40,552 nucleotides of DNA, taken from the IMG/VR virus record IMGVR_UViG_3300040801_006090, positions 1 through 40,552 of that record; one strand, written 5' to 3'. The stretch comes from a virus. Position numbers and translations under genes: made by a program. Each line of letters begins with the position of its first letter. Position 1 is the stretch's first letter. The notes beneath the pieces are model-generated. The model was given only the letters and a program-made list of their open reading frames with translations, did no database searches and was not told where the DNA came from. Below are positions 2,877 through 23,916 of this stretch, piece after piece.

Positions 2877-4508
2877 TTATTTTAAAATGATTCTTGCTGA
2901 GTTCTTGTGAATGGTTTTTCTTATCATGTAATCTGTTTTAATGTTGAAGAATGTTTTCTTTATTTTGTGGTTGGTTGATTCAAATGGATCAAATATGAAA
3001 TCTATATTATTTCGATTATGGATTACGATTCTATCAAAGTACCTTAGGGTTTCTAAAGGAGTAGTGACATTCTTAAAAATGCTTTTTATTTTTGTGTAAG
3101 CTTGAATTGGTTCATGAGAAGTTAGTGATTTATTGTTATCCTGAACTAATTTTGATTGTAGTCTTTTCTTTTCAGTTATAAGAGATTTCTTTATTTCTAT
3201 GTCTAGTTCGTTATCTGAAATGATAAACTCTGAAATTCTTTGATTATTTTGCTCTAATTTGGCCGTTGTTTGCATGATTTCATCATGTAGGCCTAATACT
3301 TCATTATGTGTTTCTAGTTCCTTAGAAAGGGAATTTAGGAACACTTTTTTATTTTTGACTAAAGTACTTATAACTTTGGAAGAAATTTCATTAAATAGTT
3401 CAACTGGTATTGCATCATTCTTACATGATTTCTTATTTTTATTTGACGAACACACTAGAAGTCTTTTTTCATATGGCTTTCCTTTGTGATTAATTCGATG
3501 TGTATAGTACTTACCACAATCAGGACATATGAGAAGATTAGCATACTCAGTTTTCTGTAGCTTTTTATTAAGTTTTGTACTATCAAGTGTGTTGTTAAAT
3601 TTTAACATTTTATGTTTTTTGATTTTTTGAACCGAATCGAACTGCTCTTGCTTTATGATTCCAGGATGCGAATTAGTTATATAGTATTGTGGTTTTATAC
3701 CATCACTCCGAACTTTAATTTTAGACCCCACTTTTTTAACATGTCTCTTTTGAAGTAGGGCATTACCTGTGTACTTCTCATTATCTAATATTCTAGATAT
3801 TGCCATTTCATAATAATCAACATTTCCTGTTTTAGTTTTATATCCTTGTAGATTTAGGAGTTTTGCTATTTCAGTTAAAGAATAATTGTTTTCATATAGA
3901 TTAAAGATTTCTTTAACGATTAATGACTCTTCAGTATTTATTATTATGTTGTTATCTTCATCTCTTTCATAACCGAGTAACTTTGATGTGTTCATTGGAG
4001 TTACTCCGTTAGTGAATCGCCTTTGATAACTCATTTTAATGTTTTCACTAATGACTCGTGATTCTTCCTGGGCCATTCCTGCAATTACACTTATTACAAA
4101 CTCTATCTTTGGATCCATTGATGATATGTTTTCTGTTTCGAACCATACTTCAGTTCCATATTCTTTTAGTAGTGATATTGATGATAGACAATCCACTGTG
4201 TTTCTTGCGAACCTAGATATCGATTTAGTGATTATCATATCAAGACTTCCAGTTTCAGCTAACTGTAGCATCATTTTAAACTGATCTCGATAATCAATAG
4301 ATGTACCACTTTCACCCTGGTCTATGAAAACACCCATAAAATTATAGTTTTTATTATCGTGTATCAGTTTGGAGTAGTGTTCTATTTGTGATTCAATGGA
4401 TGTTTTTTGCTTTTCTTGTAATGTTGATACTCTAGCATAGGCACATACATTCTTTTTACGATTTACTTTTTCATATGTTTTTAGATCAAGAATTTCAACT
4501 ACATTCAT
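2877..4508 (-). CDS. Large serine recombinase, second of a pair
   Basis: A 543-residue serine integrase-type recombinase. The N-terminal resolvase domain has CAYARVST with nucleophile Ser28 and the SRFARNT block. It is followed by a recombinase domain (about 165-290), a zinc ribbon (CPDCGKYY ... CSSNKNKKSC, about 325-370) and a coiled-coil-rich C terminus. All catalytic landmarks are present, so it should be active. Its start codon overlaps the stop of the upstream recombinase by 4 bases (ATGA), implying translational coupling. It sits at the prophage end on the strand opposite the structural genes, as an integrase usually does. Which member of the pair integrates and which, if either, excises or assists cannot be told from sequence alone. 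Confidence 0.93.
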   Translation of the reverse strand: MNVVEILDLKTYEKVNRKKNVCAYARVSTLQEKQKTSIESQIEHYSKLIHDNKNYNFMGVFIDQGESGTSIDYRDQFKMMLQLAETGSLDMIITKSISRFARNTVDCLSSISLLKEYGTEVWFETENISSMDPKIEFVISVIAGMAQEESRVISENIKMSYQRRFTNGVTPMNTSKLLGYERDEDNNIIINTEESLIVKEIFNLYENNYSLTEIAKLLNLQGYKTKTGNVDYYEMAISRILDNEKYTGNALLQKRHVKKVGSKIKVRSDGIKPQYYITNSHPGIIKQEQFDSVQKIKKHKMLKFNNTLDSTKLNKKLQKTEYANLLICPDCGKYYTHRINHKGKPYEKRLLVCSSNKNKKSCKNDAIPVELFNEISSKVISTLVKNKKVFLNSLSKELETHNEVLGLHDEIMQTTAKLEQNNQRISEFIISDNELDIEIKKSLITEKKRLQSKLVQDNNKSLTSHEPIQAYTKIKSIFKNVTTPLETLRYFDRIVIHNRNNIDFIFDPFESTNHKIKKTFFNIKTDYMIRKTIHKNSARIILK

Positions 4509-6205
4509 ACATTATCACCTAGTTTCACAACTTTATATTTTATGTTTTTATATACTTTATCACTAATTACTTCACTGTTGATTATTTGTGGTAGGTTTGT
4601 GATCTTCTGAATATGCTTACTGATTTCCTTTTTTGACAAAGGTGTATCACTCATTACAAAGATAACTTCTTGTTGGTTAATTGAGATAACAGTTTTATAT
4701 ATTGATGTAAGAACGTTTTTGTTAAGAGAAGAATAGGTGCTTAGAAATTCCTTGATTTTCTCAATTCTATGCTCATTGTGATGATTGTTTGCGATTTGCT
4801 CATTATTTTTATCAAGTTGCTCGTTGAGTTCCTTTAATAGTTCTTTCTTCTGGTTATAAACTTCTCGATAGAAATTTGTGTTCTCTTTCATCGATGCAAC
4901 ATTGATATCGATAATTTCTCTCAAATCACTCTCTGTACTTTGAATTTTCCTTTGAAGTGATTTTACTTCTTTCTGGATATCTGATTTATCAAGGTTCATT
5001 TGAACGAGTTTAATTACATCATTTACAATACTAGGATTATTTAAGTTGAGTTTCTTAATTGAATCTATCACAGCTGATTCAAGTGCACTGTTATCGGTTG
5101 CCTTGTTTTCACATGTACTTGCATCTTTGTATCTGTTTTTACACGATAGAACAACTCTTTGATTATCTTTTCCATAATTATAATAGTGTCTATTCATTAC
5201 CTTTCCACAGTGACTGCAGTATACCATGCCACTTAATGCATATTTATTACCATAATTTGAGCTAGGTCTTTTCTTAGCTCTTTTCTTTTTTAGTTCCTGA
5301 ACTAGCTGAAATGTCTTTCTAGGGATTATAGGTTCATGATTGTTTTTGATGTAATACATTGGTGCATGTCCGTTATTCTTCACTGATTTGTGAGTTAAGT
5401 AATCAACAATTACTCGTTTTTGCAAAACTGCATCACCACAGTATTTCTCATTGGTTATTATGTTATATATTGATGATGGTTTCCAGTATACTACATTCCG
5501 TCCATTCTTAATGTTATTCTCTGTTAGAAATGTTGCGATTGCATTTGCAGACATTCCGGAAATGTACATATCATAAATCTTTTTAACTGTTTCAGCTTGT
5601 TCTGGATTAATGATAATCTTTCCTTCTTCATCTTTGTCGTAACCAAGGAATCTGTTTGTGTTGATTTTGACTTTACCTTCTTTGTATCTTTTTCGAACTC
5701 CCCACTTGACATTCTCGCTAATGTTCCTTGATTCCTCCTGGGCAATTGAAGAGAAGATTGTTAGTAGAAAGTCTACTTTTGTATCGAGAGAAGAGATGTT
5801 TTCTTTTTCGAAGAAGACTTCGACATTGATATTCCTTAACTCTCTTATCACTGTTAACGTATCCACAGTGTTTCTTGCGAATCTTGATAATGACTTAGTT
5901 AAGATTAAATCAATCTTTCCATCTTTAGCATCTTCAATCATCTTTGAAAATTGTGCTCTCTTTTTAATGCTTGTACCTGATATTCCTTCATCTGCATATA
6001 ATCCCACAAAGTCCCATTCCATTTTAGAACGAATCTTTTTCTCGTATTCAGTTTTCTGAACGTTGAATGAGTTTAATTGATCCTCAGTATCTGTTGATAC
6101 CCTAGCGTAAGCACAAACACGTTTGTTCCTTTCGAGTATTGGTATTTTATCTTCTAATAAAAACACCTGGGTTGGTTCAATAACGGTTATTGTTTTTTGA
6201 TTCAT
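4505..6205 (-). CDS. Large serine recombinase, first of a pair
   Basis: A 566-residue serine recombinase with nucleophile Ser37 in CAYARVSTD, the SRFARNTVDTL block, a recombinase domain (about 180-300), a zinc ribbon (CSHCGKVMN ... SCKNRYKDASTC) and a coiled coil (about 400-480). The start has AAGGAGGT at ideal spacing. It heads a two-gene operon with the 543-residue recombinase. The two proteins are clearly homologous but diverged, so they are probably not a recent duplication. The arrangement resembles the ccrA-ccrB pair of staphylococcal cassettes and some phages with double large serine recombinases. It is a likely integrase. Confidence 0.93.
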   Translation of the reverse strand: MNQKTITVIEPTQVFLLEDKIPILERNKRVCAYARVSTDTEDQLNSFNVQKTEYEKKIRSKMEWDFVGLYADEGISGTSIKKRAQFSKMIEDAKDGKIDLILTKSLSRFARNTVDTLTVIRELRNINVEVFFEKENISSLDTKVDFLLTIFSSIAQEESRNISENVKWGVRKRYKEGKVKINTNRFLGYDKDEEGKIIINPEQAETVKKIYDMYISGMSANAIATFLTENNIKNGRNVVYWKPSSIYNIITNEKYCGDAVLQKRVIVDYLTHKSVKNNGHAPMYYIKNNHEPIIPRKTFQLVQELKKKRAKKRPSSNYGNKYALSGMVYCSHCGKVMNRHYYNYGKDNQRVVLSCKNRYKDASTCENKATDNSALESAVIDSIKKLNLNNPSIVNDVIKLVQMNLDKSDIQKEVKSLQRKIQSTESDLREIIDINVASMKENTNFYREVYNQKKELLKELNEQLDKNNEQIANNHHNEHRIEKIKEFLSTYSSLNKNVLTSIYKTVISINQQEVIFVMSDTPLSKKEISKHIQKITNLPQIINSEVISDKVYKNIKYKVVKLGDNV

Positions 6206-7151: not shown

Positions 7152-7369
7152 ATATACCTCCAAAATAGTATAAAGTAATGTTGCAACAAATTGTTGCACC
7201 TATTGAGTTATTGTTAACATTAATTCAATATTAGCACGAATAAGTGTGAAAAACAACTCCATTTTGTTGCGAATTGAAAAAAGTAAGGTCAACTTATTTT
7301 CAAGACTTTCATTTTAATATACAATGGATACAGCATGCTAATTACTACGAGAGGAGGTACTGATAAATT
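7152..7369. promoter_or_regulatory. Divergent early control region
   Basis: The 218-base gap between the repressor and the Cro-like gene carries no ORF. It contains the 17-bp operator, a leftward -10 (TATACT), and AT-rich sequence with a possible rightward -10 (TACAAT near 7320) before an AGAGGAGG ribosome site. It is the genetic-switch region of the prophage. Confidence 0.6.
7182..7198. promoter_or_regulatory. Repressor operator palindrome
   Basis: TGCAACAAATTGTTGCA is a perfect 8+1+8 palindrome. It lies just upstream of the repressor's probable -10 box (TATACT on the minus strand, 7169-7174), so binding would block or autoregulate that promoter. A similar half-site, TTGTTGCG, occurs at 7264-7271 nearer the rightward promoter. 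Confidence 0.65.
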
Positions 7370-8561: not shown

Positions 8562-9296
8562 ATGATTACTGAATTTAAACAAGCATCATATGGGAAAATT
8601 CGGGGAACCATCGTAAATGGAATGCCTTATGTTTGCTTAACTGACTTATCAAAAATGATGGGAGTAACAAACTCTCAAAAATGTAGAACCACAATCCCTG
8701 AAGCAGATGTATTAATAATCGAAGATGATACAACTAAATCAAAGAGAAAATTACTTTTTATAAAAGCTGAACATGTAAGTACATGTATCTTCAAATCAAC
8801 AAAGGAAGAAGCAGAGTTAATAGGTGAATGGATATACAAACAAGTTTTACCAAACCTACTAAACATCTCTGATGAAGTAGATAGATTTAAGGATCCCTAC
8901 TCTGTAATTGAGTTCCTACAGGAGTTTCACCATTTGAAATTAAGAAATACCGTATTAGAAACAGAACAGAAGATTAATAAACCAAAATTGAAATATATTA
9001 ACAAGTTACTTGGTTCAAACCAATGTATCGATCTAGAAATGGTTACTCAGATTATTAAGTATCCTGGATTAAAACCATCAGAATTATTTAAGATGTTACG
9101 AGCATTTTCTGTTATAGATGATAACAACATCCCTTATCAAGAATATTGTGATAAGAAGTATTTTAGAGTCGTTTCAACTACAACTAAATCAAATGGACAG
9201 ATTCTTACCTTAGAAAGAGCATACGTGTATAAAAGTGGAATAGCCTTTATAGAAAGATTACTAAAGGAATATGAGGTTAAACATGATACAAGATGA
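8562..9296 (+). CDS. Phage antirepressor (BRO-N/KilAC type)
   Basis: A 244-residue protein. The N-terminal BRO-like domain (about 1-105) contains YGKIRGTIVNGMPYVCLTDL and the typical EWIYKQVLPN stretch. The C-terminal half (about 135-240) matches KilA-C-type antirepressors: LKPSELFKMLRAF, then NNIPYQEYCDKKYF and a terminal beta-hairpin. Proteins of this kind antagonise phage repressors and promote induction. The ribosome site GAAAGGA precedes the ATG. It lies in the early rightward operon between the tyrosine recombinase and the excisionase-like gene. Confidence 0.8.
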   Translation: MITEFKQASYGKIRGTIVNGMPYVCLTDLSKMMGVTNSQKCRTTIPEADVLIIEDDTTKSKRKLLFIKAEHVSTCIFKSTKEEAELIGEWIYKQVLPNLLNISDEVDRFKDPYSVIEFLQEFHHLKLRNTVLETEQKINKPKLKYINKLLGSNQCIDLEMVTQIIKYPGLKPSELFKMLRAFSVIDDNNIPYQEYCDKKYFRVVSTTTKSNGQILTLERAYVYKSGIAFIERLLKEYEVKHDTR

Positions 9297-9480
9297 AAAA
9301 GAATACTACACAGTACCTGAAGTAAAAAGAATACTAAAGGTATCAACGCAAACAGTACTAAAATATTTAAAGAATAGAGAATTAAAAGGATTTCGTTTAG
9401 GTAATCAATGGAGAGTATCCAAAAAAGGATTAGAAAACTTCATCGATAGAAACTCAAACGAACGAGAAATAATAGACTAG
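9283..9480 (+). CDS. Excisionase-like MerR/HTH_17 protein (65 aa)
   Basis: A small winged-helix protein with YYTVPEVKRILKVSTQTVLK followed by ELKGFRLGNQWRVSKKGLENF, the classic HTH_17 excisionase/MerR-N pattern. ATG 9283 with GAGG six bases upstream is favoured over an in-frame start at 9271 that would consume the ribosome site. It ends three bases before the first 28-bp repeat and follows the tyrosine recombinase by two genes, so a directionality factor for that recombinase is plausible. A plain transcription regulator is the alternative. Confidence 0.75.
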   Translation: MIQDEKEYYTVPEVKRILKVSTQTVLKYLKNRELKGFRLGNQWRVSKKGLENFIDRNSNEREIID

Positions 9481-9482
9481 TA

Positions 9483-9510
9483 TTCCGATAATGCTTGTGA
9501 ACGCTATTAT
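9483..9510 (+). repeat. 28-bp direct repeat, copy 1 (possible recombination site)
   Basis: TTCCGATAAT, then three variable bases (GCT), then TGTGAACGCTATTAT. It matches copy 2 at 14478-14505 at 25 of 28 positions, with all differences in the three central-left bases. The GATAAT/ATTATC pair gives partial inverted arms around a 13-base core, as in tyrosine-recombinase core sites. It lies immediately after the excisionase-like gene. Confidence 0.7.
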
Positions 9511-9582
9511 CAAGTTAAGAATTGACATGAAATAAAGTAAACAAGCATTTTTCGTTATACTCATTTTGAAAGGATAACAAGT

Positions 9583-10464
9583 ATGGCACGCCCAATAAAA
9601 AAAGGACTATCTTACTTTCCTTTGGATGTGCATGCTTTTGAAGACCCTAAACTGGAGTCACTCTCTTATCATTATGGACCTTTTGGTGAATGTGTATATA
9701 TCAGGTTGCTTCAACTTGTCTATGCAAATGGATATTATTTAAAGCTTACTGCAAAACAATTAGCAGCTAAGCTTCATAAACAAATAGGACCACATTGGAT
9801 AAAGGTGGACAAGATCTTGGATATAATTCACGCTTGTGTTGAATTTGGACTCCTTGAAAGAGCGTTCTTTCTACAAGGTGTAATTACATCAGTGTCTATC
9901 CAGAAACAGTTCATTCTCTCTACGAAAAGAAGGAAGAATGTAGATATTGACAAGTATTGGTTGTTAGATTCCGCAACCATGGAACATTTAGGGGTCCTTT
10001 TAAGCATGGACAAAAAAGAGGTTAATGTTAACAATAACTTAGTTAATGTCGACAATAACTCAATTAATGTTAGCAATAATACACAAAGTAAAAAGAAAAG
10101 TAAAAGAGATAAAAATAAGATTAAAAAAGATAAAAGCATTTATGGGTCTCCCAAAATGCATTATTTAACTAAATTGATTGTTGATAGAAAATACATAAAT
10201 GAAGTTGATGAAAAAATAATTAAGTATAATGGCTTGTTTGATAGTGCAATTGAATCATATGGATTTGAGAACGTATTAAGTGGTGTGAGTTACTTAATCA
10301 AGCATTCAAAAAGAACGGAAGTACAAATAAATGATAAGTATAGTTTTATGAAGACTTCATTGTTAAGTAATTTAGAACATTTTAGAAGAAAAGAAGAGCA
10401 AGGAGATGAGAGTTTTGAAGAATGGTTCGAAAGAGTCTTTTCAAGAATGGATAATAAAAGTTAA
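9583..10464 (+). CDS. DUF4373 (Lin1244/Lin1753-type) phage replication initiator
   Basis: A 293-residue protein beginning with the Lin1244/Lin1753 N-terminal domain: KKGLSYFPLDVHAFEDPKL, then YGPFGECVYIRLLQL and GLLERAFFLQG (residues about 5-110). It is a winged-helix-like domain found in phage replication initiators. A low-complexity Asn/Val repeat (about 147-167) and a lysine-rich linker separate it from a helical C-terminal part that may be DnaD/DnaB2-like. The repeat is encoded by three 21-bp DNA repeats that look like iterons, an arrangement known from initiators carrying their origin inside the gene. GAAAGGA precedes the ATG. Confidence 0.75.
   Translation: MARPIKKGLSYFPLDVHAFEDPKLESLSYHYGPFGECVYIRLLQLVYANGYYLKLTAKQLAAKLHKQIGPHWIKVDKILDIIHACVEFGLLERAFFLQGVITSVSIQKQFILSTKRRKNVDIDKYWLLDSATMEHLGVLLSMDKKEVNVNNNLVNVDNNSINVSNNTQSKKKSKRDKNKIKKDKSIYGSPKMHYLTKLIVDRKYINEVDEKIIKYNGLFDSAIESYGFENVLSGVSYLIKHSKRTEVQINDKYSFMKTSLLSNLEHFRRKEEQGDESFEEWFERVFSRMDNKS
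10021..10083 (+). repeat. Three 21-bp iteron-like repeats, possible phage origin
   Basis: Three tandem imperfect units of 21 bp (pattern (G/A)TTAATGT..(A/G)CAATAA) lie in frame inside the initiator gene. They encode V/I-N-V-x-N-N-x three times. They are followed by a purine-rich A/G tract (10084-10135). Iterons plus an AT/purine-rich tract inside the initiator gene is the lambda O-type origin layout. Confidence 0.45.
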
Positions 10465-10471
10465 ATGGGCA

Positions 10472-10843
10472 ATGATAACTCACAATAATCTAAAGGATAA
10501 GCTAAGAATGTATAATCATCAGCTCACAAAATGTAAATCTGCTACCTATGATCAAATTCGTAGTTCAGGTGATTCAGGTAACAAAGAAGAAGAAAGAGTA
10601 TTAATGTTACTAGATAAGATAAACGAGTATGAGAAGAAGATAGAAGCAAACAATATTGTGTTTAAAGAGTTCTATAGTCTTGAAGAGAATATAAGTTCTG
10701 ATTTGGCACAAACGGTCTTATATTATATGGCTAGAACGCAGTTTAGAAAATCCGAAATAGCAAAAATAATGAAAGTTTCTAGAAGTACCTTGTACACTAT
10801 GATAAAAAAAATCGAGGTTAGATACAAAAAATTAATGAGATAG
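10472..10843 (+). CDS. Phage late-regulator-like HTH protein (sigma-70 region 4/ArpU style)
   Basis: An approximately 123-residue protein. The N-terminal two thirds are long helices (KDKLRMYNHQL, LLDKINEYEKKIEANN). The C-terminal third is a helix-turn-helix (TQFRKSEIAKIMKVSRSTLYTMIKKIEVRYKKLM) like those of ArpU/RinA-type phage transcription regulators. The start is uncertain: ATG 10472 matches the usual N terminus, but the reading frame opens at 10406 within the initiator gene. AAGGAG at 10400 could serve a TTG at 10415. It ends the replication module and may switch on late genes. Confidence 0.6.
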   Translation: MITHNNLKDKLRMYNHQLTKCKSATYDQIRSSGDSGNKEEERVLMLLDKINEYEKKIEANNIVFKEFYSLEENISSDLAQTVLYYMARTQFRKSEIAKIMKVSRSTLYTMIKKIEVRYKKLMR

Positions 10844-10884
10844 TCTAACAAATTCTATTATCAAGATAGCATATATAGACTTTA

Positions 10885-10893
10885 TGCTATAAT
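10885..10893 (+). promoter_or_regulatory. Extended -10 promoter of ietA
   Basis: TGCTATAAT is an exact extended -10. It overlaps an inverted repeat ATAGCATA (10866-10873)/TTATGCTAT (10882-10890) that could be an operator or a weak terminator. A second TATAAT lies 12 bases downstream. Confidence 0.6.
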
Positions 10894-10940
10894 GATAGTA
10901 TAATATATTGTTAAGGATCTCAGTTAGAAAGGTGATATGT

Positions 10941-11903
10941 ATGCCTACATCGAAACAATTAAAACTATTAGTCACAGCTTTTTACGAAAATGATAATGAA
11001 AAGTTTCAGACTATAGCCCTGCAAATAGCTGCTCATGAATCTAGAATAGGACACTCAAAATTTGCAAAAGAGCTTAGAGATTTAGTTCAAAATTCAACAA
11101 AAACATTGAATCGTATAAATACTCTAAGCGATGAAAATGTTGATTTTTTTGAGTTTAGTCTGGAAAATATCAAACTTTCACAACTTATAACAGAAAGCGT
11201 TCATAAAGAAAGAATTAATAAGATACTTTTAGAATATCTCCAAAGAGAGAAGTTAAGGGATTATGGATTATCAAATAGACGGAAAATCCTTTTAGAGGGA
11301 GCTCCAGGCACTGGAAAAACAATGACTGCTTCGATAATTGCATCCGAGTTGAAACTTCCTTTATATAAAGTTCAAATGCATAACTTAGTTACCAAATATA
11401 TGGGTGAAACTAGTAGTAAATTGAGGAAAATTTTTGACTCTATTAATAACACTCAAGGTGTGTATTTCTTTGATGAGTTTGACGCAATCGGTACTGAACG
11501 TGGTAATGATTCAGATGTTGGAGAAATGAGACGAGTACTAAATTCATTCCTGCAATTTATTGAACAAGATAATTCTAGTAGTATCATTATCGCTGCTACT
11601 AACAATTCACAACTTCTTGACTACGCTTTGTTTAGAAGGTTCGATGATGTGATTCATTACAGTTTACCAACTAAAACTGAAATAAAATTACTTTACAAAA
11701 ACAGACTAACTGAATTTGTAACGAAGTTGAATGGTGAGATGGAAGAAATAGTAGATGCAAGTATATCATTAAGTCATGCTGAAATTTCAAGGATTTGCGA
11801 TGATGTACTCAAAGACTCATTGCTTGAAAATAGAAATATCAATAAAGAAGTAGTTTTAAGGATAATTGACCAAAGGAAGAAGATATATAAGATTAAAAAA
11901 TAG
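10941..11903 (+). CDS. ietA: IetA-like AAA ATPase of an IetAS defence pair
   Basis: A 320-residue AAA ATPase: Walker A GAPGTGKT (120-127), Walker B VYFFDEFD (174-181), sensor 1 IIIAATNN (215-222) and arginine finger LFRRFD (230-235). The N-terminal approximately 100 residues are helical. ATG 10941 with AAAGGTGAT upstream is chosen over the earlier in-frame codon at 10908. The next gene, 12 bases downstream, encodes an intracellular subtilase. This AAA ATPase/subtilase two-gene order is that of IetAS, first named from Agrobacterium Ti-plasmid maintenance and later listed as an anti-phage system. The ATPase is expected to control the protease or deliver substrate to it. Family evidence is by architecture and context. 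Confidence 0.8.
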   Translation: MPTSKQLKLLVTAFYENDNEKFQTIALQIAAHESRIGHSKFAKELRDLVQNSTKTLNRINTLSDENVDFFEFSLENIKLSQLITESVHKERINKILLEYLQREKLRDYGLSNRRKILLEGAPGTGKTMTASIIASELKLPLYKVQMHNLVTKYMGETSSKLRKIFDSINNTQGVYFFDEFDAIGTERGNDSDVGEMRRVLNSFLQFIEQDNSSSIIIAATNNSQLLDYALFRRFDDVIHYSLPTKTEIKLLYKNRLTEFVTKLNGEMEEIVDASISLSHAEISRICDDVLKDSLLENRNINKEVVLRIIDQRKKIYKIKK

Positions 11904-11915
11904 GAGGAAGGTAGA

Positions 11916-14399
11916 ATGGATAAGTTTAAGAATATTTTGCTAATTAATACAAAGGAGTCAGATAATTATACATCACCCAAAAATGCACCTAAAACTTTTG
12001 TTCCATCAAGGGTTAGAGCTGATCATGGGAACTATATATTTAGTAAGTTAGAGGAGATTTGGAATTCTCAAACCACGGATAAATCCGTAGTTAACTATAA
12101 TACGAAAGACGGTATTTACATGGAGTTCCGAAGTCCTGCTGGAGCTTCGCTAGCATTGAAAAGCATTGAGAGTAGAAGAAAAGGTGTTAGATTACTAAAC
12201 GTAAAAAATATACAAGATGATAATAATGAGGATATAGAACTTGCTACAGTCTACATACCAAAAGAAGCAAGAGGGTTCTTTCTAAATAAAGTTTCTGCAT
12301 ACATTAATGACAATACAAAATTTGACAAACCAAAAAATCAAACTATGGTTAATTTGATTGAGGATATTAAAGAAGCTGTTATTGAATCATTTTGGTTTGG
12401 AGAATTAAAAGATATGCCAACTGGTGATGAGAAACAGTGGTGTGAGATTTGGTTGAGAAACGATAGTATAGATATGGAGATTTATGAAGATGTTCAAACA
12501 TTGTTTGAGAATTTTTGTACTGAAAATCAAATTCAGTATAAGAATGCATATATTCTTTTCCCAGAGAGGGTAGTTTCACTCATAAATGTGGATTATAGTC
12601 AACTAAGACTATTTGTTAATGAGTTTGATGCACTTGCAGAATTTCGTAGAGCCCCGATAGTGTCAAGAGATTTTACTGAAATGACACCTTTCGAGCAGAG
12701 CGAATGGGCGAAAGATTTAATGGATAGAACAGTAATTGCAGAAGATATTGATAGTAGTATATGTGTATTTGATACTGGAGTAAATAATGCAAACCCACTA
12801 TTATCTTCTGTTTGCAAGGATGATGACAGACACACTTATAATAATGCTTGGGGAAAAGGCGATCATGAAGGACACGGAACAAAAATGACAGGTATATGTA
12901 CCTATTTTAATTTAGAGGAACTCTTAGCATCATCTGATGTTTTCCATGTGACACATGTCCAAGAATCTGTAAAAATATTACCTCCTAATGGTGCGAATAA
13001 ACCAGAACTTTATGGACATATAACTAACCGTAGTTTTAGTATAGTTGAGATAGAAGCTCCTCAAAGAAGAAGAGTGTACTGTCTTGCAGTTTCCTCAAAT
13101 ATTTATAACTCATATGATGGTACTCCAACATCTTGGTCTGCTGAAATCGATAATCTGGCGTCAGGAGCTCATGATAGTATAAGAAGGCTTATATTACTAT
13201 CTTCAGGAAACGTAACCTTAAGTGAATTAAATACAGATGGATATTCAAAAGCAAACCTATTGCATTCAATTGAATCTCCAGGACAAGCCTGGAATGCAGT
13301 TACAGTTGGAGCATATAATACGAAAAATGTAATTCATGATAAAAGATTAGCAGGATACAATCCAGTTGCCAGTGTAGGTGAAATGAGTCCATATAATTCA
13401 ACTTCTTTTATGTGGAAAAGTTCATGGCCAATCAAACCTGAAATAGTGTGTGAAGGTGGAAATGTTGCAGTTATGAGTAATTTTCATACAGATTGTGATG
13501 ATCTATCTTTATTGACTACAAACAAGGATCTTCCAAATATCTTTGATACAATAAATGCAACAAGTTCTGCCACTGCACAAGCCTCATATATAGCTGCAAA
13601 ACTTTATTCAAACTACAAAGATTATTGGCCTGAGACCGTAAGAGGTTTATTAGTCCACTCAGCTAATTGGACAGATAAAATGAAGTCTAATATATCCAAC
13701 AATCCAACAAAAAAAGAGTATGAGTTATTGTTGAGAAGCGTAGGATATGGGGTGCCAAGTTTAGAACGTGCATTATGGACAACAAATAATGCAGTTAATA
13801 TGGTTATACAAGATCAGCTTCAACCTTTTAAAAAGGATGATGGATATAAAACCAATGAAATGCATATGCATAAAGTACCATGGCCAAAGGAATTACTTAG
13901 ATCAATTAGTGATCTTGATATCCAAATTAAAGTTAGAATCACATTATCATATTTCATTGAACCAGGACCTGGAGAAATTGGATGGAAAAATAAATATAGA
14001 TACTCTTCATGTGGTTTGCGATTTGACATGAATAATCCTGGAGAATCTAAACAAGAATTCGCTACTAGGATCAATAAAGCACAAAGAGATGATGAATCAG
14101 TAATTTTTCAAAATGATTCTTCAAGATGGATGCTTGGACAAAACAATAGAGATAAAGGTTCTATACATTCTGATACTTGGATAGGTACACCAAGCGATCT
14201 TGTAAACTCAAACTACATCTCCGTCTTTCCAGTTATTGGTTGGTGGAGAGAGAGAAATCATTTAAATAAATTTGATAATAAGGTAAAGTATTCATTGATT
14301 GTATCAATAGAATCGATGGATGCTGAAATAGATTTATATACACCAATAATTACAGAAATTGAATCGGTTGTTCCTGTTCAGGTTTCTATAGAAGTATAA
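11916..14399 (+). CDS. ietS: IetS-like intracellular subtilase (S8 peptidase)
   Basis: An 827-residue serine protease with a subtilisin triad: Asp286 (VFDTGVN), His320 (EGHGTKM) and Ser550 (NATSSATAQAS), plus the oxyanion-hole Asn in LLSSGN. The usual GTSxA is changed to ATSSA. There is no signal peptide or propeptide, so it acts in the cytoplasm. The first approximately 260 residues form a separate regulatory part and the C-terminal approximately 220 a beta-rich extension, both usual for large defence-type subtilases. AGGAGG at good spacing and a 12-base gap place it in an operon with ietA. Activity probably harms the cell or phage once triggered; the trigger is unknown. Confidence 0.82.
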   Translation: MDKFKNILLINTKESDNYTSPKNAPKTFVPSRVRADHGNYIFSKLEEIWNSQTTDKSVVNYNTKDGIYMEFRSPAGASLALKSIESRRKGVRLLNVKNIQDDNNEDIELATVYIPKEARGFFLNKVSAYINDNTKFDKPKNQTMVNLIEDIKEAVIESFWFGELKDMPTGDEKQWCEIWLRNDSIDMEIYEDVQTLFENFCTENQIQYKNAYILFPERVVSLINVDYSQLRLFVNEFDALAEFRRAPIVSRDFTEMTPFEQSEWAKDLMDRTVIAEDIDSSICVFDTGVNNANPLLSSVCKDDDRHTYNNAWGKGDHEGHGTKMTGICTYFNLEELLASSDVFHVTHVQESVKILPPNGANKPELYGHITNRSFSIVEIEAPQRRRVYCLAVSSNIYNSYDGTPTSWSAEIDNLASGAHDSIRRLILLSSGNVTLSELNTDGYSKANLLHSIESPGQAWNAVTVGAYNTKNVIHDKRLAGYNPVASVGEMSPYNSTSFMWKSSWPIKPEIVCEGGNVAVMSNFHTDCDDLSLLTTNKDLPNIFDTINATSSATAQASYIAAKLYSNYKDYWPETVRGLLVHSANWTDKMKSNISNNPTKKEYELLLRSVGYGVPSLERALWTTNNAVNMVIQDQLQPFKKDDGYKTNEMHMHKVPWPKELLRSISDLDIQIKVRITLSYFIEPGPGEIGWKNKYRYSSCGLRFDMNNPGESKQEFATRINKAQRDDESVIFQNDSSRWMLGQNNRDKGSIHSDTWIGTPSDLVNSNYISVFPVIGWWRERNHLNKFDNKVKYSLIVSIESMDAEIDLYTPIITEIESVVPVQVSIEV

Positions 14400-14414
14400 T
14401 TAGTTACAATTTTT

Positions 14415-14460
14415 AGAACACAAAAGGTAGATATACATAATGCTTTTTGTGTTTTTGTTT
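14415..14460 (+). terminator. Terminator of the ietAS operon
   Basis: AACACAAAA pairs with TTTTGTGTT (14446-14454 region), followed by TTTTGTTT. The loop is about 19 bases and there is one bulge, so efficiency may be moderate. Confidence 0.6.
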
Positions 14461-14477
14461 GAATGGAGTATAAATAC

Positions 14478-14505
14478 TTCCGATAATTGATGTGAACGCT
14501 ATTAT
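14478..14505 (+). repeat. 28-bp direct repeat, copy 2 (possible recombination site)
   Basis: TTCCGATAAT, TGA, then TGTGAACGCTATTAT. It is the same orientation as copy 1 at 9483-9510 and lies 18 bases after the ietAS terminator. Direct orientation means recombination between the copies would excise the 4995 bp between them as a circle. Confidence 0.7.
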
Positions 14506-14519
14506 ACGATATGAAATTG

Positions 14520-14702
14520 CAATAGTTTGAAATGAATTAAAATAAAACGTTAAACTCAAATGACCCCTAAAACTGGGGAAATACACGCTGTGAGCGTGTA
14601 GACACTTTTTGACTTTGATGTTAGAATATTAGTATCGTGGAGTACTGGCTAAAAAGCCTAGAAGTTATAGAAACTCATAAAATTGGGTTTCTTTTTCTTT
14701 TG
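14520..14702 (+). ncRNA. Structured non-coding stretch ending in a terminator
   Basis: The 370 bases between ietS and the next gene have no ORF. After the repeat come a short CCCC/GGGG hairpin (14564-14578), a 7-bp TACACGC/GCGTGTA hairpin (14582-14600), GGCT-AAAA-AGCC (14647-14658), and a Rho-independent terminator AGAAACTC/GGGTTTCT (14669-14692, one wobble) with TTTTTCTTTT. A possible -35 TTGACT is at 14609-14614, but no convincing -10 follows. The pattern suggests an untranslated RNA or a leader. I do not recognise a family. Confidence 0.4.
14668..14702 (+). terminator. Rho-independent terminator before the terminase-small-like gene
   Basis: AGAAACTC (14669-14676) and GGGTTTCT (14685-14692) form an 8-bp stem with one G-T pair and an 8-base loop, followed by a long T-rich tract. 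Confidence 0.75.
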
Positions 14703-14778
14703 CAGAAACAAATGTAGTATTTCAACTGGTTAATAAGTACAGTTTTTAAGAAATATAACATCGGTTGGAGTGATAGAA

Positions 14779-15258
14779 ATGGGTAAAAGACTGCTTGATA
14801 CTTACGAAAAGTGGGAACAACAAGGAACTGTAAAAAAGAAACTAGATGATATCAAACATTTAGTCTCTGAGAACATAAGTCAAAAGAAAATATCAGAGCA
14901 TTTAGGTATAACTGAAAAGACGTTGATTAAACTGAAGAAGAAACACAAAAGGTTAGCTGATGCTTTTATTGATGGGAAGGATAAACAGTTAGCTGAGTTG
15001 ATTGATTTAACAATGAAACTGGCACGAGGGTATACTATTGGTTTGAAAGAGAAGTCTTTGGAAGATAATAAAATCAAAAAGAATAATAACAAGAACAAAG
15101 TTGTTATTAAGGAAAAACATTATCCTCCCAATTTACACGCAATTAAATTCATCATGAATATTAAGCATGGTATAAACGAACGAAGAGAAGAGTTGGACCT
15201 TATGAAAGAAAGAATAGAATCAAGAAAGGACGAGTGGCCAGATGCAACTGATAACTAA
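14779..15258 (+). CDS. HTH protein resembling phage terminase small subunits
   Basis: A 159-residue protein. The N-terminal half has an HTH unit (SENISQKKISEHLGITEKTLIKL), followed by helical LAELIDLTMKLARGYT, a layout shared with many phage small-terminase/DNA-binding proteins that end in a helix before a W/P-containing tail (DEWPDATDN). ATG 14779 has GGAG eight bases upstream and is preferred to the GTG at 14770. The better small-terminase candidate lies next to terL at 21953, so this copy may be a second DNA-binding packaging or regulatory protein. It overlaps the methyltransferase gene by 17 bases. Confidence 0.55.
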   Translation: MGKRLLDTYEKWEQQGTVKKKLDDIKHLVSENISQKKISEHLGITEKTLIKLKKKHKRLADAFIDGKDKQLAELIDLTMKLARGYTIGLKEKSLEDNKIKKNNNKNKVVIKEKHYPPNLHAIKFIMNIKHGINERREELDLMKERIESRKDEWPDATDN

Positions 15259-19108: not shown

Positions 19109-19954
19109 ATGTTAGAAAACCAAGTATTTATAAGTCACTCATCTAGAGATGTTGATTTTGTACTTCAGTTGAATGAGTTTTTATCAGGGTTAGGAATTCC
19201 AAAAGAAAATATTTTTTGTTCATCTATAGAGGGACAAGGAGTTACTCAGGGGAACAGAATTGAAGATTCAGTAAAACAACACTTATCTAATTCAACCATA
19301 ATTATATATGTCTTATCTCAAAACTTCTTAAAAAGTCAAGCATGTATGCAAGAGTTAGGTGTAGGATGGATGAGTAATGATACCAAGAAATGCTTCTTTA
19401 TGAAGTTAGATGATATCAGTATGGAAGACATAAAAGGTTTTCTTAATATGTCGTATAAATTCACTTTTGTAAATGAAGAGTCGTTATCAGAGTTTGTTGA
19501 TGATTTCTGTGACATCACAAATCTACCCAACCTTAAGGCTTCTGTATTAATGAAGTTAATTAGATCTTTAATTAATACTTCATCATCATTTATAGAAGAA
19601 ATAGTAGAAGAAAAAAAACTATCTGATAAAGAAATTGAACAAAAAGTACTAGAAAAGCTAAAAGAACAAATGTATAAACTTAATGTTGGTGAGTTGAAAG
19701 TCTTAGCAAGTATTTACTTTGCCGAAGATCAGTGTGGAGAGTTTGAAGTAAACTCAGGAGTGATTAATTTACTCCAAGACAAAACGATAGTATATAGACT
19801 ATCACAACTTTCTACATTTGGTATGTACTTTCAGTTTACGCTACAACCTTGGGCAAAAGATTTTATTACAAATGATGAAAAGTTCAGAGAAAATTTGAAG
19901 AAGTATTATAACGGACCTTCAAGAAATCCTTTGAGCTATATGAATAGGTTCTAA
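19109..19954 (+). CDS. TIR-domain protein, probable defence effector
   Basis: A 281-residue protein with an N-terminal TIR domain (residues about 4-135): VFISHSSRD (beta-A/BB-loop start), IIYVLSQNFLKSQACMQEL with Glu82 in the position of the NADase catalytic glutamate. The C-terminal half is helical (coiled coil about 165-195) and could be a sensor or oligomerisation part. Bacterial TIR proteins commonly deplete NAD+ or make signal nucleotides upon phage sensing. AAGGTG precedes the ATG, and it has its own promoter. The UDG-like gene begins three bases after its stop, implying one operon. No SLOG/SAVED/Sir2 domain is visible, so the known TIR system to which it belongs is not clear. Confidence 0.82.
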   Translation: MLENQVFISHSSRDVDFVLQLNEFLSGLGIPKENIFCSSIEGQGVTQGNRIEDSVKQHLSNSTIIIYVLSQNFLKSQACMQELGVGWMSNDTKKCFFMKLDDISMEDIKGFLNMSYKFTFVNEESLSEFVDDFCDITNLPNLKASVLMKLIRSLINTSSSFIEEIVEEKKLSDKEIEQKVLEKLKEQMYKLNVGELKVLASIYFAEDQCGEFEVNSGVINLLQDKTIVYRLSQLSTFGMYFQFTLQPWAKDFITNDEKFRENLKKYYNGPSRNPLSYMNRF

Positions 19955-19957
19955 ACT

Positions 19958-20581
19958 ATGGCTTTTAATTTAGTGCAGTTCAATAATTTTATTAATCGAC
20001 TAAAATCACAACCAAATACTAGTTCTGTTGAAAATCAATATTTGAGTACAACACAAATAAGCAATTTGGAATTATATCTAAAAAACCTTGAAGTATTAAG
20101 TCCGGATATTTTATTGATTGGTGAAGCACCTGGATATAATGGCTGTACGTTATCAGGTATACCTTTTACAAGTGAGTTTATAATTAATACTCAAACTCCT
20201 CCAGGAGTTTTAAGTGGGTGTACTACAACTGGAAATCAAAAAGAATCATCTGCTACTGTGGTTTGGAGCAAACTAAATGAACGACAGTCTTTAGGAAAAT
20301 TATCTATACCACCAATCATTTGGAACATATTCCCATTTCATCCTCACGATGTAGGAAACATAAAGAGTAATAGAAAACCTAATGCTTCAGAGTTAAGATT
20401 AGGATTGTCAATTCTAAATGATTTGATAGCTTTGTTTCCAACCGTTACTAGTATCTATGCCATAGGCAATGTTGCAGGTAACAAAATAAATACAATATCA
20501 AATTATGCTGGAAACTTAAGACATCCTTCATATGGAGGGAAAAGTAAGTTTAATTCAGGAATGGATTTAATCTATCCATAA
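19958..20581 (+). CDS. Uracil-DNA glycosylase superfamily protein
   Basis: A 207-residue protein with UDG-fold landmarks: LLIGEAPGYNGCTLSGIPFT (GEAPG 55-59, active-site loop), WNIFPFHPH (123-130) and RHPS (188-191, DNA-intercalation/His motif). It resembles family-4-like enzymes, but the residue after GEAPG is Tyr rather than the usual Gln/Asp, so substrate choice or chemistry may differ. It is directly downstream of the TIR gene (three-base gap). It may excise bases from invading DNA or act as a DNA-lesion/modified-base sensor for the TIR protein; this pairing is inference. Confidence 0.78.
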   Translation: MAFNLVQFNNFINRLKSQPNTSSVENQYLSTTQISNLELYLKNLEVLSPDILLIGEAPGYNGCTLSGIPFTSEFIINTQTPPGVLSGCTTTGNQKESSATVVWSKLNERQSLGKLSIPPIIWNIFPFHPHDVGNIKSNRKPNASELRLGLSILNDLIALFPTVTSIYAIGNVAGNKINTISNYAGNLRHPSYGGKSKFNSGMDLIYP

Positions 20582-20640
20582 CCTCCCCCCATCAATATCG
20601 ATTTATTGATCGAGGGGTACCGTACGGTTGGGCAATTAAG
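20582..20640. repeat. GC-rich inverted repeats between UDG and ApeA-like genes
   Basis: ATCAATA/TATTGAT flanked by C-run and GAGGGG (about 20586-20618) forms a strong hairpin, followed by the palindrome ACCGTACGGT (20619-20628 region). The composition is far richer in GC than the surroundings. There is no T-run, so it is not an ordinary terminator. It could be a boundary scar, a protein site or an RNA element. Confidence 0.5.
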
Positions 20641-20678
20641 AAACACGAGGCATAATTTTTGAAAATCTTAAAAGGGAG

Positions 20679-21941
20679 ATGATTGTTTTGGATGATGAGT
20701 TGAAGTTTTATATAAAATTGTATGTGAATAAAGTAGAAAAAAATTATAATGGAAAAATCGTTGATACTCACAATGGGAAAGTACTTGAACTAGATAGATT
20801 ATCAAGTACACTGTCAACAGAAGAAAGAGAGGCATTTAAGTACGCAAAAATACCACATGTTATTGCAAGTGCTAATAATGGTAAAGAATATGTTTTCTAC
20901 AATTTGTCATGGTTAGGAACAAGAACGCACTATGGCGAATCAAACATAGTTATGCATTTTAGAATGTCCTTTGATACACTAGTTGAAAATCCAACAAAAA
21001 CCAATATGTATAATGAGGTTAGTTTTTCATTTGATTTTATTGAAGATATGTTTGGTAGAACTACTTTTAAAACACAGTTTCCAACCGAAGATAATAATGA
21101 TGAGTTAGTATTATCAGTGACAGTTCCAGAAAATGAGATTTGTGAACTAGCCGATAAAACAGTTATTAAGGTTACAACAGACTTTGATGGTCTAGTATCA
21201 TCACATCATTTGTTCGACATAGATATAAAGCAAAGGAAACGAATTCATGTAAGATTTCCAGATGGGAAATCTTTAGAAGAAATTAGCAATTTAATTGAGA
21301 TCATAAAATTGTATTTCGAGTTTGTATACAACTATAGGTTAGGATTTAATAAAATAAAGTTAATTAATATTGACATACCAAAAGGATATCATTTAGCTGA
21401 ATTACTGATATCTGATTTGTATAACACAATGAAACCTGAATCATTAATTAAATTTAAAAGTAGATACACAGGCACAAACACAGAATTAGTGGCAAGAATC
21501 AAGAATTGGATAGAACTTTATGATTTATATAGTGAAAGTATACAGTTATGGAAGAAGACAATATATAACGACAACATTGATGAGACAGATAGATTTATTT
21601 GGATTTGTCAGGCATTTGAGTCTTTATGTCAGCATGATGAAGAGATATATTCCGTTGCATTAGAACATGCAAAAAGGAAAAGCAAGAAGAAGTCATACCC
21701 AAATTTATCTGATTACTTGTATACTGTTCAAGATATAATTGGATTTTCCTCAACTTCTCAAAACAAGCACTACAGGGATATTGTTAGGGTGAGAGATAAG
21801 TTTATCCACAATAATCCAAAGAAGACAATTTCAGAACTACAGTGTGAAAATAGTTATAAGTTGATAGACTATTTTTACCTATCATTGGTTGTGAAGAAAC
21901 TAGATGATATTAAAGTAGGTAGAATGTTGATGTTAAGATAG
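20679..21941 (+). CDS. ApeA-like HEPN-domain protein, probable defence
   Basis: A 420-residue two-domain protein. The N-terminal approximately 230 residues are beta-rich (FYNLSWLGTRTHYGE, MHFRMSF, EVSFSFDFIED) and resemble ApeA N-terminal domains. The C-terminal approximately 150 residues are helical and carry Arg372-x4-His377 (VRDKFIHNNP), the HEPN ribonuclease signature. ApeA proteins are single-gene abortive-infection systems that cut RNA when triggered by phage. The start is ambiguous: ATG 20679 abuts GGGAG, while TTG 20688 has ideal spacing. It lies between the TIR/UDG pair and terS, with no sign of belonging to packaging. Confidence 0.65.
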   Translation: MIVLDDELKFYIKLYVNKVEKNYNGKIVDTHNGKVLELDRLSSTLSTEEREAFKYAKIPHVIASANNGKEYVFYNLSWLGTRTHYGESNIVMHFRMSFDTLVENPTKTNMYNEVSFSFDFIEDMFGRTTFKTQFPTEDNNDELVLSVTVPENEICELADKTVIKVTTDFDGLVSSHHLFDIDIKQRKRIHVRFPDGKSLEEISNLIEIIKLYFEFVYNYRLGFNKIKLINIDIPKGYHLAELLISDLYNTMKPESLIKFKSRYTGTNTELVARIKNWIELYDLYSESIQLWKKTIYNDNIDETDRFIWICQAFESLCQHDEEIYSVALEHAKRKSKKKSYPNLSDYLYTVQDIIGFSSTSQNKHYRDIVRVRDKFIHNNPKKTISELQCENSYKLIDYFYLSLVVKKLDDIKVGRMLMLR

Positions 21942-21952
21942 TAGGTGGGAAT

Positions 21953-22276
21953 TTGAGTCTTAATAATGAATATAAGCGATTGAAGTCGCTTTTTTCTTTG
22001 GTTGATGAATCAAAGAAAGAGTTAGTAGATAACTTGATTTATCAAGCTGCATTTATGAAAGTGGAACTTGATAAATTACAGATACAGATAAAGAAATACG
22101 GTGCAGTGCAAATATCTAATAAAGGTGCACAAAGACAGACTGAGTCAGCCAAGTATTATACAAAACTTGTAAATTCATATGGAACTGTGATTAAAGCGTT
22201 GAACTCGGTTCTTGGTACACAAGTAGATGATGGTGATGATGCATTTGATGAGTTTTTAAGGAAAGCTCAAGAATGA
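21953..22276 (+). CDS. Terminase small subunit (P27-like)
   Basis: A 107-residue helical protein: YKRLKSLFSLVDESKKELVDNL, AAFMKVELDKLQIQIKKYG, then SAKYYTKLVNSYGTVIKALN. Size, helix pattern and position fit P27-type small terminase subunits, which bind pac/cos DNA. The TTG start at 21953 follows AGGTGGG; no in-frame ATG exists nearby. The stop overlaps the terL start by four bases. Confidence 0.75.
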   Translation: MSLNNEYKRLKSLFSLVDESKKELVDNLIYQAAFMKVELDKLQIQIKKYGAVQISNKGAQRQTESAKYYTKLVNSYGTVIKALNSVLGTQVDDGDDAFDEFLRKAQE

Positions 22277-23916
22277 ATTATCTTATTGAGTACTACAATG
22301 AAATCAAGAATGGAAACATCATTATTGGTGATGAACTAAGAACTCAATTAGATGGATTGATTAACGATCTAGATAATCCTAGATACTTCTTTGACTTGAA
22401 ACCAGGTAATCTTAGAATTGATTTTATTGAGACTTTCTGCAAACACACAAAGTCACCATTTAACGGTATGCCTTTTGAATTAGAAATATGGGAAAAAGCA
22501 CTTCTTCAAACAGCGTATGGATTCAAGATGAGTGAAACAGGACTTAGAAGATTTAACGAGGTAATATTACTAATTGCTCGTAAGAATGGGAAGACAACTT
22601 TTGTTGCTGGTATAGACTTATCTGAGTTCTTTCTTTCAAGTGGTGGTGTTGACATTGTATGTGCATCCAACACAACAGAACAGGCTAACATCCTATTTGA
22701 AGAGATTAATAATATGCGAGAGCAATCACCTGCTTTATCAAAGGACACTAGAAGTAAGAAGAACATCTATCACATTTATTCACCTAAGACTAAAAACAAG
22801 ATAAAGAAGTTATCTGCACAATCAAGAAACAAAGATGGATACAATATAGAGGTAGGTTGTATTGATGAAGTTCACGAAATGACTGATTCAAAAGTATATG
22901 ATGCGATTAAGCAATCACAATCAACTAAAAAAGAACCATTAATATTTATCATAACCACAGAAGGGACAACTGTTGGTGGGTTTTTAGATAACAAACTAGA
23001 TTATGTTAGAAAGATGCTAAAGGGTGATATTGATGATGAACGTGTTCTACCTTGGCTATATACTCAAGATTCAACTAAGGAAATATACGATGATCCAAAA
23101 ACTTGGATGAAATCGAATCCAAGTCTTGGAGTTGTTAAGACAACTAATTATCTTGAAGACATTATGAATAAATCTAAACATGACTTATCCACAAGAGTTA
23201 CAATGCTTTGTAAAGATTTTAATATCAAACAGGCTGATTCAGGTTCATGGTTAAGCTTCGAAGACTTGAACAATGAAGAGACTTATTCGATTGATGATTT
23301 AAGAGATAGTTATGCCGTAGGTGGTGTTGATTTATCTTCAACAACAGACTTAACATCTGCAGTATTGGTTATTCAAAAAAGAGATAATAGTAAAAAATAT
23401 GTTATACCTCATTTCTTTATGCCAAGTGAAGTTCTAGATAAAAGAATCAAAGAGGATAATGTGCCATATGACATTTGGCTAAAGAAAGGTTATATTACAT
23501 TAACAGATGGAAACCAGAATGACTTTAGCCTTGTCACACAATGGTTAATGAAGATGATTCAAACATATGGTATAAGACCTTTATGGGTAGGATATGATCC
23601 CTGGAACTCCCAATACTGGATAAAGGAGATGGAAGATTTAGGATTTAACATGGAAAAGATAAGGCAAGGAGTATATACATTGTCTGAGCCGATGAAGATT
23701 CTAGAAGCTGATTTGAAGAATAATCTAGTGAACTACAACAATAATCCCATTCTTAAGTGGTGCTTGGCTAATACACAAGCTAAGGTAGATTTGAATGGAA
23801 ACATACAGCCATCAAAACTTAATTCTAAATACAAACGAATTGATGGGACAGTGGCACTAATCATTGCATATGTTGTTCTTAATAGATATAAAAATGACTA
23901 TGAGAATATGATATAA
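22273..23916 (+). CDS. terL: Terminase large subunit
   Basis: A 547-residue packaging motor. The ATPase domain has a Walker A-like ARKNGKTT (102-109) and Walker B IEVGCIDEVHE with Asp198-Glu199. The C-terminal RNase H-like nuclease has VGGVDLSSTTDL (Asp353) and VGYDPWNSQYW. It is of the HK97/P27 type (Terminase_1). It starts in an ATGA overlap with terS. Its last codons contain the extended -10 of the next, unrelated gene. Confidence 0.95.
   Translation: MNYLIEYYNEIKNGNIIIGDELRTQLDGLINDLDNPRYFFDLKPGNLRIDFIETFCKHTKSPFNGMPFELEIWEKALLQTAYGFKMSETGLRRFNEVILLIARKNGKTTFVAGIDLSEFFLSSGGVDIVCASNTTEQANILFEEINNMREQSPALSKDTRSKKNIYHIYSPKTKNKIKKLSAQSRNKDGYNIEVGCIDEVHEMTDSKVYDAIKQSQSTKKEPLIFIITTEGTTVGGFLDNKLDYVRKMLKGDIDDERVLPWLYTQDSTKEIYDDPKTWMKSNPSLGVVKTTNYLEDIMNKSKHDLSTRVTMLCKDFNIKQADSGSWLSFEDLNNEETYSIDDLRDSYAVGGVDLSSTTDLTSAVLVIQKRDNSKKYVIPHFFMPSEVLDKRIKEDNVPYDIWLKKGYITLTDGNQNDFSLVTQWLMKMIQTYGIRPLWVGYDPWNSQYWIKEMEDLGFNMEKIRQGVYTLSEPMKILEADLKNNLVNYNNNPILKWCLANTQAKVDLNGNIQPSKLNSKYKRIDGTVALIIAYVVLNRYKNDYENMI

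Follow-up and report, generated by a model that had tools for sequence, protein, structure and literature searches.

A dif-like site bounds a variable defence slot in prophages that encode an Xer-like recombinase: a possible natural cassette-exchange platform

How defence genes settle at fixed places in prophages and keep changing there is an open question. For the P2/P4 phage and satellite defence hotspots, exchange through cos ends has been speculated (Rousset et al. 2022, PMC9122126). These hotspots resemble the locus described here in combining a fixed slot in related prophages and satellites, ever-changing defence systems and an adjacent conserved DNA site; they differ in that their site is cos and no recombinase is invoked, whereas the boundary here is dif-like and the phage has an Xer-like enzyme of its own. 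Integrons (IntI, attI, attC), which include phage-borne ones (PMC9892861), share with it a tyrosine recombinase near a fixed site, cassettes between repeated sites, arrays and possible defence-type cargo. Unlike in integrons, the recombinase is nearer to XerA/XerD than to IntI4 in the PDB ranking, the sites are double-strand and dif-like, and a cassette holds several genes, in some cases with promoter-like elements of its own; in most phages there is a single cargo block that has no left site. Xer/dif and dif-exploiting elements such as CTXphi have in common with the locus a 28-bp site made of 11-bp arms and a 6-bp spacer, an Xer-family enzyme and a dif-like left arm; here, however, the enzyme is phage-encoded, the sites lie inside the prophage and the right arm is unlike dif. 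In systems of Tn916/CTnDOT-type tyrosine integrases, sites with common arms differ in their spacer (coupling) sequences, as they do here, although this is not an integrating element and integration probably falls to a pair of serine recombinases. Engineered recombinase-mediated cassette exchange with lox/FRT variants likewise relies on identical arms, incompatible spacers and exchangeable cargo in between, but the present arrangement is natural and its exchanged block usually does not start at the left-hand site (s1 below). No description of this arrangement was found in open-access papers. The locus is a variant form of the phage defence hotspot, with a candidate mechanism; because the edge of its slot is defined, a candidate enzyme is encoded in the same operon and the spacer rule can be tested, the exchange mechanism is directly assayable.

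The window analysed is the 40.5-kb IMG/VR record IMGVR_UViG_3300040801_006090 (positions 1 to 40,552), from a virus that resides in soft-walled bacteria. A sequence-only reading had reported two 28-bp direct repeats 4995 bp apart, and both are indeed present, at 9483-9510 and 14478-14505, with all 25 specified bases identical. The chance expectation for such a pair is 0 and none of 100 dinucleotide shuffles matched it; a search of the window allowing up to 3 mismatches found no third copy, the next best site having 8. The unit is better read as an 11-bp arm, a 6-bp spacer and an 11-bp arm, shifted slightly to the left (sites s1 and s2, Table 1), in which case the differing bases, GCT versus TGA, fall within the spacer. 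Dyad symmetry is centred exactly on this spacer: 6.98 of 13 arm positions pair, compared with 3.51 (SD 0.20) in shuffles, and pairing reaches 0.50 at the 6-bp-spacer centre versus 0.17-0.37 at other centres, with a peak there only. With inverted arms around a spacer in the 6-8 bp range, the 28-mers are, by their form, tyrosine-recombinase-like core sites, which agrees with the earlier idea that the XerC/D-like recombinase might use them. A pattern search found the host dif, GTTCCTATAA-TGTATA-TTATGTTAAC or a near variant, in most host genomes. The window left arm shares 8 of 10 bases with the host-type dif arm GTTCCTATAA and the spacer has the same 6-bp length; outside the window, phage left arms agree with the host dif left arm at 4-8 of 10 bases, and the phage right arm does not resemble dif.

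Table 1. Sites, genes and other elements around the defence slot of the window
Feature	Position	Strand	Details
Large serine recombinase 1 of adjacent pair	2877..4508	-	
Large serine recombinase 2 of adjacent pair	4505..6205	-	
Xer-like tyrosine recombinase, 307 aa	7623..8546	+	Phage_integrase 9.5e-27
Bro-N/KilAC antirepressor	8562..9296	+	
HTH_17 small DNA-binding protein, excisionase-like, candidate directionality factor	9271..9480	+	
Site s1	9481..9508	+	left arm TATTCCGATAA 9481-9491, spacer TGCTTG 9492-9497, right arm TGAACGCTATT 9498-9508
Replication initiator, Lin1244 family	9583..10464	+	phrog_2562, 1e-43
Iteron-like repeats within initiator gene	10021..10079	+	2.8 copies of 21-bp unit
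LREG, phage transcription-regulator-like protein, C-terminal HTH	10406..10843	+	
IetA, AAA ATPase, defence cargo	10908..11903	+	PADLOC 6e-71
IetS, subtilase-type protease, defence cargo	11916..14399	+	PADLOC 1e-29
Terminator-like hairpin after ietS	14418..14452	+	ACACAAAA ... TTTTGTGT, then T-rich; read from sequence
Site s2	14476..14503	+	left arm ACTTCCGATAA 14476-14486, spacer TTGATG 14487-14492, right arm TGAACGCTATT 14493-14503
Promoter-like block and leader, conserved, upstream of terS-like gene	14593..14717	+	terminator-like hairpin 14669-14692 at end
terS-like gene, first right of s2	14770..15258	+	phrog_309

The gene content read earlier from the letters holds: an XerC/D-like recombinase to the left of the segment, an excisionase-like gene directly before the first repeat and, within the segment, a replication initiator with genuine iteron-like repeats and an adjacent IetA and IetS pair. 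As an AAA ATPase and subtilase pair this IetAS is an ordinary member of its kind, of interest only for its location. The recombinase aligns end to end with the XerA/XerC-like structure 4a8e (2e-21; XerD 1a0p, 2e-18), has Xer-like length and no arm-binding domain, and its catalytic residues R149, K175, H247, R250, H273 and Y282 are invariant in the recombinase alignment, which by sequence places it in the Xer family of tyrosine recombinases. The two serine recombinases are paralogous; the pair (2877-6205) is kept in all relatives long enough to show it and is probably the prophage integration module. Since this module can handle integration, the Xer-like recombinase is the likely enzyme acting on the repeats. 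A serine integrase was set aside as their user, the sites being internal to the prophage. The best reading of the 28-mers, and one that we consider probable while leaving ample room for doubt, is that they are dif-like sites of the phage's own Xer-like recombinase and that s2 is a recombination site.

Relatives were collected by searches with initiator and recombinase alignments in IMG/VR and in Tenericutes/Bacillota genomes; MAG assemblies could contain chimeras. About 30 related prophage loci were found, each with its own version of the window repeat and a constant gene order: the serine-recombinase pair and CI on the minus strand, then cro, the Xer-like recombinase, usually an antirepressor, the HTH_17 gene, the initiator, a regulator-like gene, cargo, the terS-like gene and a ParB-methylase. 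The usual pair of sites consists of s1, kept in the gap between the HTH_17 and initiator genes, and s2, located 200-325 bp before the terS-like gene and forming the right boundary of the defence cargo. Four distant members (L033, L063, L065 and L066) are without s1 and have s2-type sites only; upstream of the recombinase gene of two of them, L065 (461) and L066 (532), there is a near-perfect dif-like palindrome, ACCGATAATAATAGTTATCGGG. The exact window 28-mer had no match in IMG/VR and relaxed core patterns were used instead. Core matches in L122-L124, in or beside unrelated phage genes, were discarded as chance, and L120, with a core and no recognisable family gene, was set aside. Host genomes carry the recombinase family patchily, both by order (3/90 and 11/160 genomes) and across the class (10/395); its relatives in the phage collection are remote, all below 60% identity and at best ~28% among 20 listed. 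The closest relative of the window has ~71% protein identity in the initiator, which is too distant to reveal the window's own breakpoints.

The earlier suggestion that cargo beside the repeats might vary among related prophages was borne out. Between close relatives, the content located between the regulator-like gene and s2 is replaced wholesale, and it is nearly always a defence system: IetAS in the window, type II restriction with AbiH (L003), type III restriction with PDC-S46 (L004), type I restriction (L005 and L060), type IIG restriction with PDC-S06/S11 (L006), two AbiE pairs (L033), Gabija with a methylase (L053) and PDC-S73 (L063), among others. Non-defence cargo occurs too, as exported proteins in extra cassettes of L003, L102 and L127 and transporter-like genes in L056, and several cassettes belong to no known family; L099 has a TIR-like set among its cargo. 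The extra cassettes by s2 in L003 (16033-17457), L102 (5366-6922) and L127 (14211-15860) encode unrelated exported proteins of ~470-550 aa, two of the three with a weak PPC domain. A cassette of L033 (6978-8222) holds a 342-aa gene without a Pfam or PADLOC match, whose beginning, as far as the start codon, nearly copies the terS-like leader. A palindromic promoter-like element, AGTGCTATAAT...ATATAGCAC, with a T run behind it, stands in similar form at the start of unrelated defence genes in L099 (8380), L004 (13331) and L006 (12359).

In close pairs with different cargo, homology spans the recombinase, s1 and the initiator and ends at the end of the initiator or regulator gene, so that the variable block runs from there to s2. 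The C-terminus of the regulator LREG already differs between close relatives. Of six pairs compared, five (L060/L061, L051/L057, L065/L066, L033/L065 and L003/L004) regain homology at the 5' edge of s2 and the sixth (L053/L058) slightly before the core. Position-by-position identity over 35 pairs of close relatives with different cargo stays at a background of 0.31-0.40 left of s2, is mixed in the left arm, reaches 0.57 at spacer base 2 and is 1.00 at spacer bases 3-6 and at the first 7 right-arm bases, except one at 0.94; at s1, both flanks are conserved in the same comparison. This profile fits the pattern that a crossover in the core would leave, but it would be partly similar if an essential element simply began at s2, and the left edge of the first cargo block, which is without a site, also speaks against recombinase action. 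That a defence slot bounded by s2 exists is firmly supported, and we regard it as close to certain. At s1, a change of parent was seen in two clades: identity between L051 and L057 drops from 92-96% left of s1 to 80-85% in the initiator (L051 versus L100 initiator, 95-98%), and between L053 and L032 it rises from 79-86% to 96-97%. Because s1 coincides with these changes, exchange near it has occurred in two lineages, by site-specific or homologous recombination. At s1 itself, exchange may take place from one phage to another, not by way of an s1-s2 circle.

The two sites obey a spacer rule. Their arms are shared and their spacers differ in 22/22 phages with both sites, and spacer base 2 is G in 24/24 s1 and 0/38 s2-type spacers, counts that come from related phages and not from independent samples. 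This base changes among close relatives in s2 and stays fixed in s1. Spacer heterology blocks canonical tyrosine-recombinase recombination, as established for lox/FRT variants, and recombination of s1 with s2 by a canonical enzyme is therefore disfavoured; we infer that the rule protects the initiator from excision. These observations bear directly on two proposals made for the 9.48-14.5 kb segment. According to the first, s1 and s2 would recombine and release the initiator-ietAS segment as a self-replicating mini-circle; in its favour, two directly repeated sites flank a replicon-like segment beside a recombinase. The ever-differing spacers argue against it, as do the close relatives, which retain their initiators while the cargo changes; core-pattern searches found neither a circle nor an empty s1/s2 joint, and we hold such a release to be highly improbable. 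The second, a swappable cargo between the repeats, survives in part: the defence genes do vary up to s2, but the initiator stays in close relatives. The comparisons favour a one-sided cassette slot over the mini-circle.

Most phages carry one cargo block with the right-hand site only. Sites flank cassettes in L033, L003, L099, L102 and L127, where extra cassettes lie between two or three sites, and cassette-free relatives also exist. The three sites of L033 have identical spacers and right arms, the third with altered outer left-arm bases, and L102 has a same-spacer pair whose left copy is missing inner arm bases. Extra cassettes between two sites are found in L003, L099 and L127 and are absent from L104/L051 (for L099) and L118 (for L127). 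In L099, a three-gene cassette is inserted between two sites, the core plus ~110 bp being duplicated around it; L104 (96.7%) and L051 (92.2%) have L099's upstream cargo and a single site. The extra two-gene cassette of L127 lies between sites that differ in the right arm (TGAACAG versus TGAACGG) and in repeat type; L118, which is 93% identical to L127 on the right, carries only the second of these sites. The multi-site phages are consistent with cassettes having been captured and the left site decaying later. Two details argue against exchange by the recombinase. The last ~120 bp of L127 cargo before the core derive from another parent, which implies that one crossover lay left of the core and that homologous recombination also acts at the slot. 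Moreover, the spacer does not always travel with its cassette, AbiH lying beside TAC in two phages and TCC in L003.

Downstream of each of the two sites, phages of the L051 clade have phased repeats of 11 bp (TCAAGTGGTNN; lag-11 shuffle P <=0.01 in several), an arrangement that a filament of a small HTH protein, for instance an excisionase, could occupy. The repeat type tracks the initiator allele and not the recombinase or HTH_17 alleles, a point against the recombinase as user of the sites; L127 has an alpha-type repeat at one site inside a beta-type phage. The HTH_17 protein was not supported as the cause of the two types, its alleles not splitting with them, and LREG was rejected as the site-binding protein, since L003 and L004 have different C-terminal HTHs in this protein but the same site arms. 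The phased repeats, with array type following initiator type, and the position of both sites ahead of operons are what would be expected of regulator-binding arrays, bound for instance by a Cox-like HTH_17 protein or the initiator and controlling the initiator and terS-like operons, cargo ending where essential regulatory DNA starts. The presence of an HTH_17 gene in every site-bearing element of sufficient length agrees with this. However, the s2 core and the conserved promoter-like block downstream of it are ~100 bp apart; a pair of palindromic half-sites spaced by about two turns around a 6-bp centre is unusual for such an operator and standard for an Xer site; and regulation predicts neither heterospecific spacers in 22/22 phages nor cassettes between duplicated sites. 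We consider this explanation unlikely, though worth keeping in mind.

Two satellite-like defence islands, G134:C55 (L111, L105, L112) and G138:C34 (L113, L108, L114), carry one site each. They contain a serine recombinase pair, an HTH_17 gene, a different Rep-like gene and a defence block, whose sequence reads as BREX-like in G134:C55, and are without the tyrosine recombinase or phage structural genes. A site in an element lacking the recombinase weighs against the Xer-like enzyme, unless satellites use that of a helper phage, which they may. It is also the best argument for s2 as a packaging site, as P4 carries the cos of P2: the dyad core would be cosN and the 11-bp repeats cosB, cargo being swapped by cohesive-end joining and homologous recombination, an exchange proposed by Rousset et al. 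(2022, PMC9122126) for hotspots beside cos, and s2 does lie 200-325 bp upstream of the terS-like gene. Against packaging, a large terminase and a P27-like TerS-type gene (21953-23916) and an HNH nuclease (18780) are found ~4-7 kb from s2, the large terminase (22273) 7.8 kb away, and only the terS-like gene adjoins s2. Most of the family has another conserved copy, s1, next to the initiator; cutting at every site would fragment an array like that of L033; and the satellite spacer, TGTATG, is of s1 type, not s2 type. Streptococcus/Lactobacillus phages with a related methylase module and no such recombinase gave no core match at <3 mismatches. Taken together, a cos function seems distinctly unlikely.

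If s2 is instead a recombination site of the Xer-like enzyme, it would be the working boundary of the defence slot, and cassettes would enter, leave or swap by crossover in its core, with the neighbouring HTH_17 protein as the probable directionality factor. The left arm would come in with the cassette, while the right arm, its downstream repeats and the terS-like operon would stay with the backbone. At its left end the cassette would be joined by homologous recombination in the initiator or regulator genes, or through an older, decayed left site. With common arms and a different spacer, s1 would keep the essential initiator from being excised along with cargo. The locus is possibly a case of natural heterospecific cassette exchange, the spacer rule holding in 22/22 phages and the breakpoint at s2 being sharp, that at s1 seen in two lineages only. 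In its full form, this would be a natural cassette-exchange platform: the prophages would use their own Xer-like recombinase and a pair of dif-like sites with incompatible spacers to trade defence cassettes with co-resident phages while keeping the essential replication genes, and satellites carry the same kind of site. We put this forward tentatively, as somewhat less likely than not. The boundary, with its recombination-like site, suggests how such prophages trade immunity genes and, if it is true, scanning the DNA left of such sites would be a route to new defence systems.

Several further elements were observed around the slot. The promoter-like block, leader and hairpin before the terS-like gene recur in relatives, and the leader may serve attenuation or antitermination control; no RNA element of the window matched Rfam, and a consensus RNA fold of the leader found little support. 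An 18-bp stretch in the CI-cro gap (7206-7223) is the exact reverse complement of the iteron-like repeat at 10022-10039, which hints that one protein binds both. Finally, a second defence-like cluster (19109-21941), with TIR/SieB domains and an ApeA N-terminal domain, is placed between the methylase/SAM-synthetase module and the terminase.
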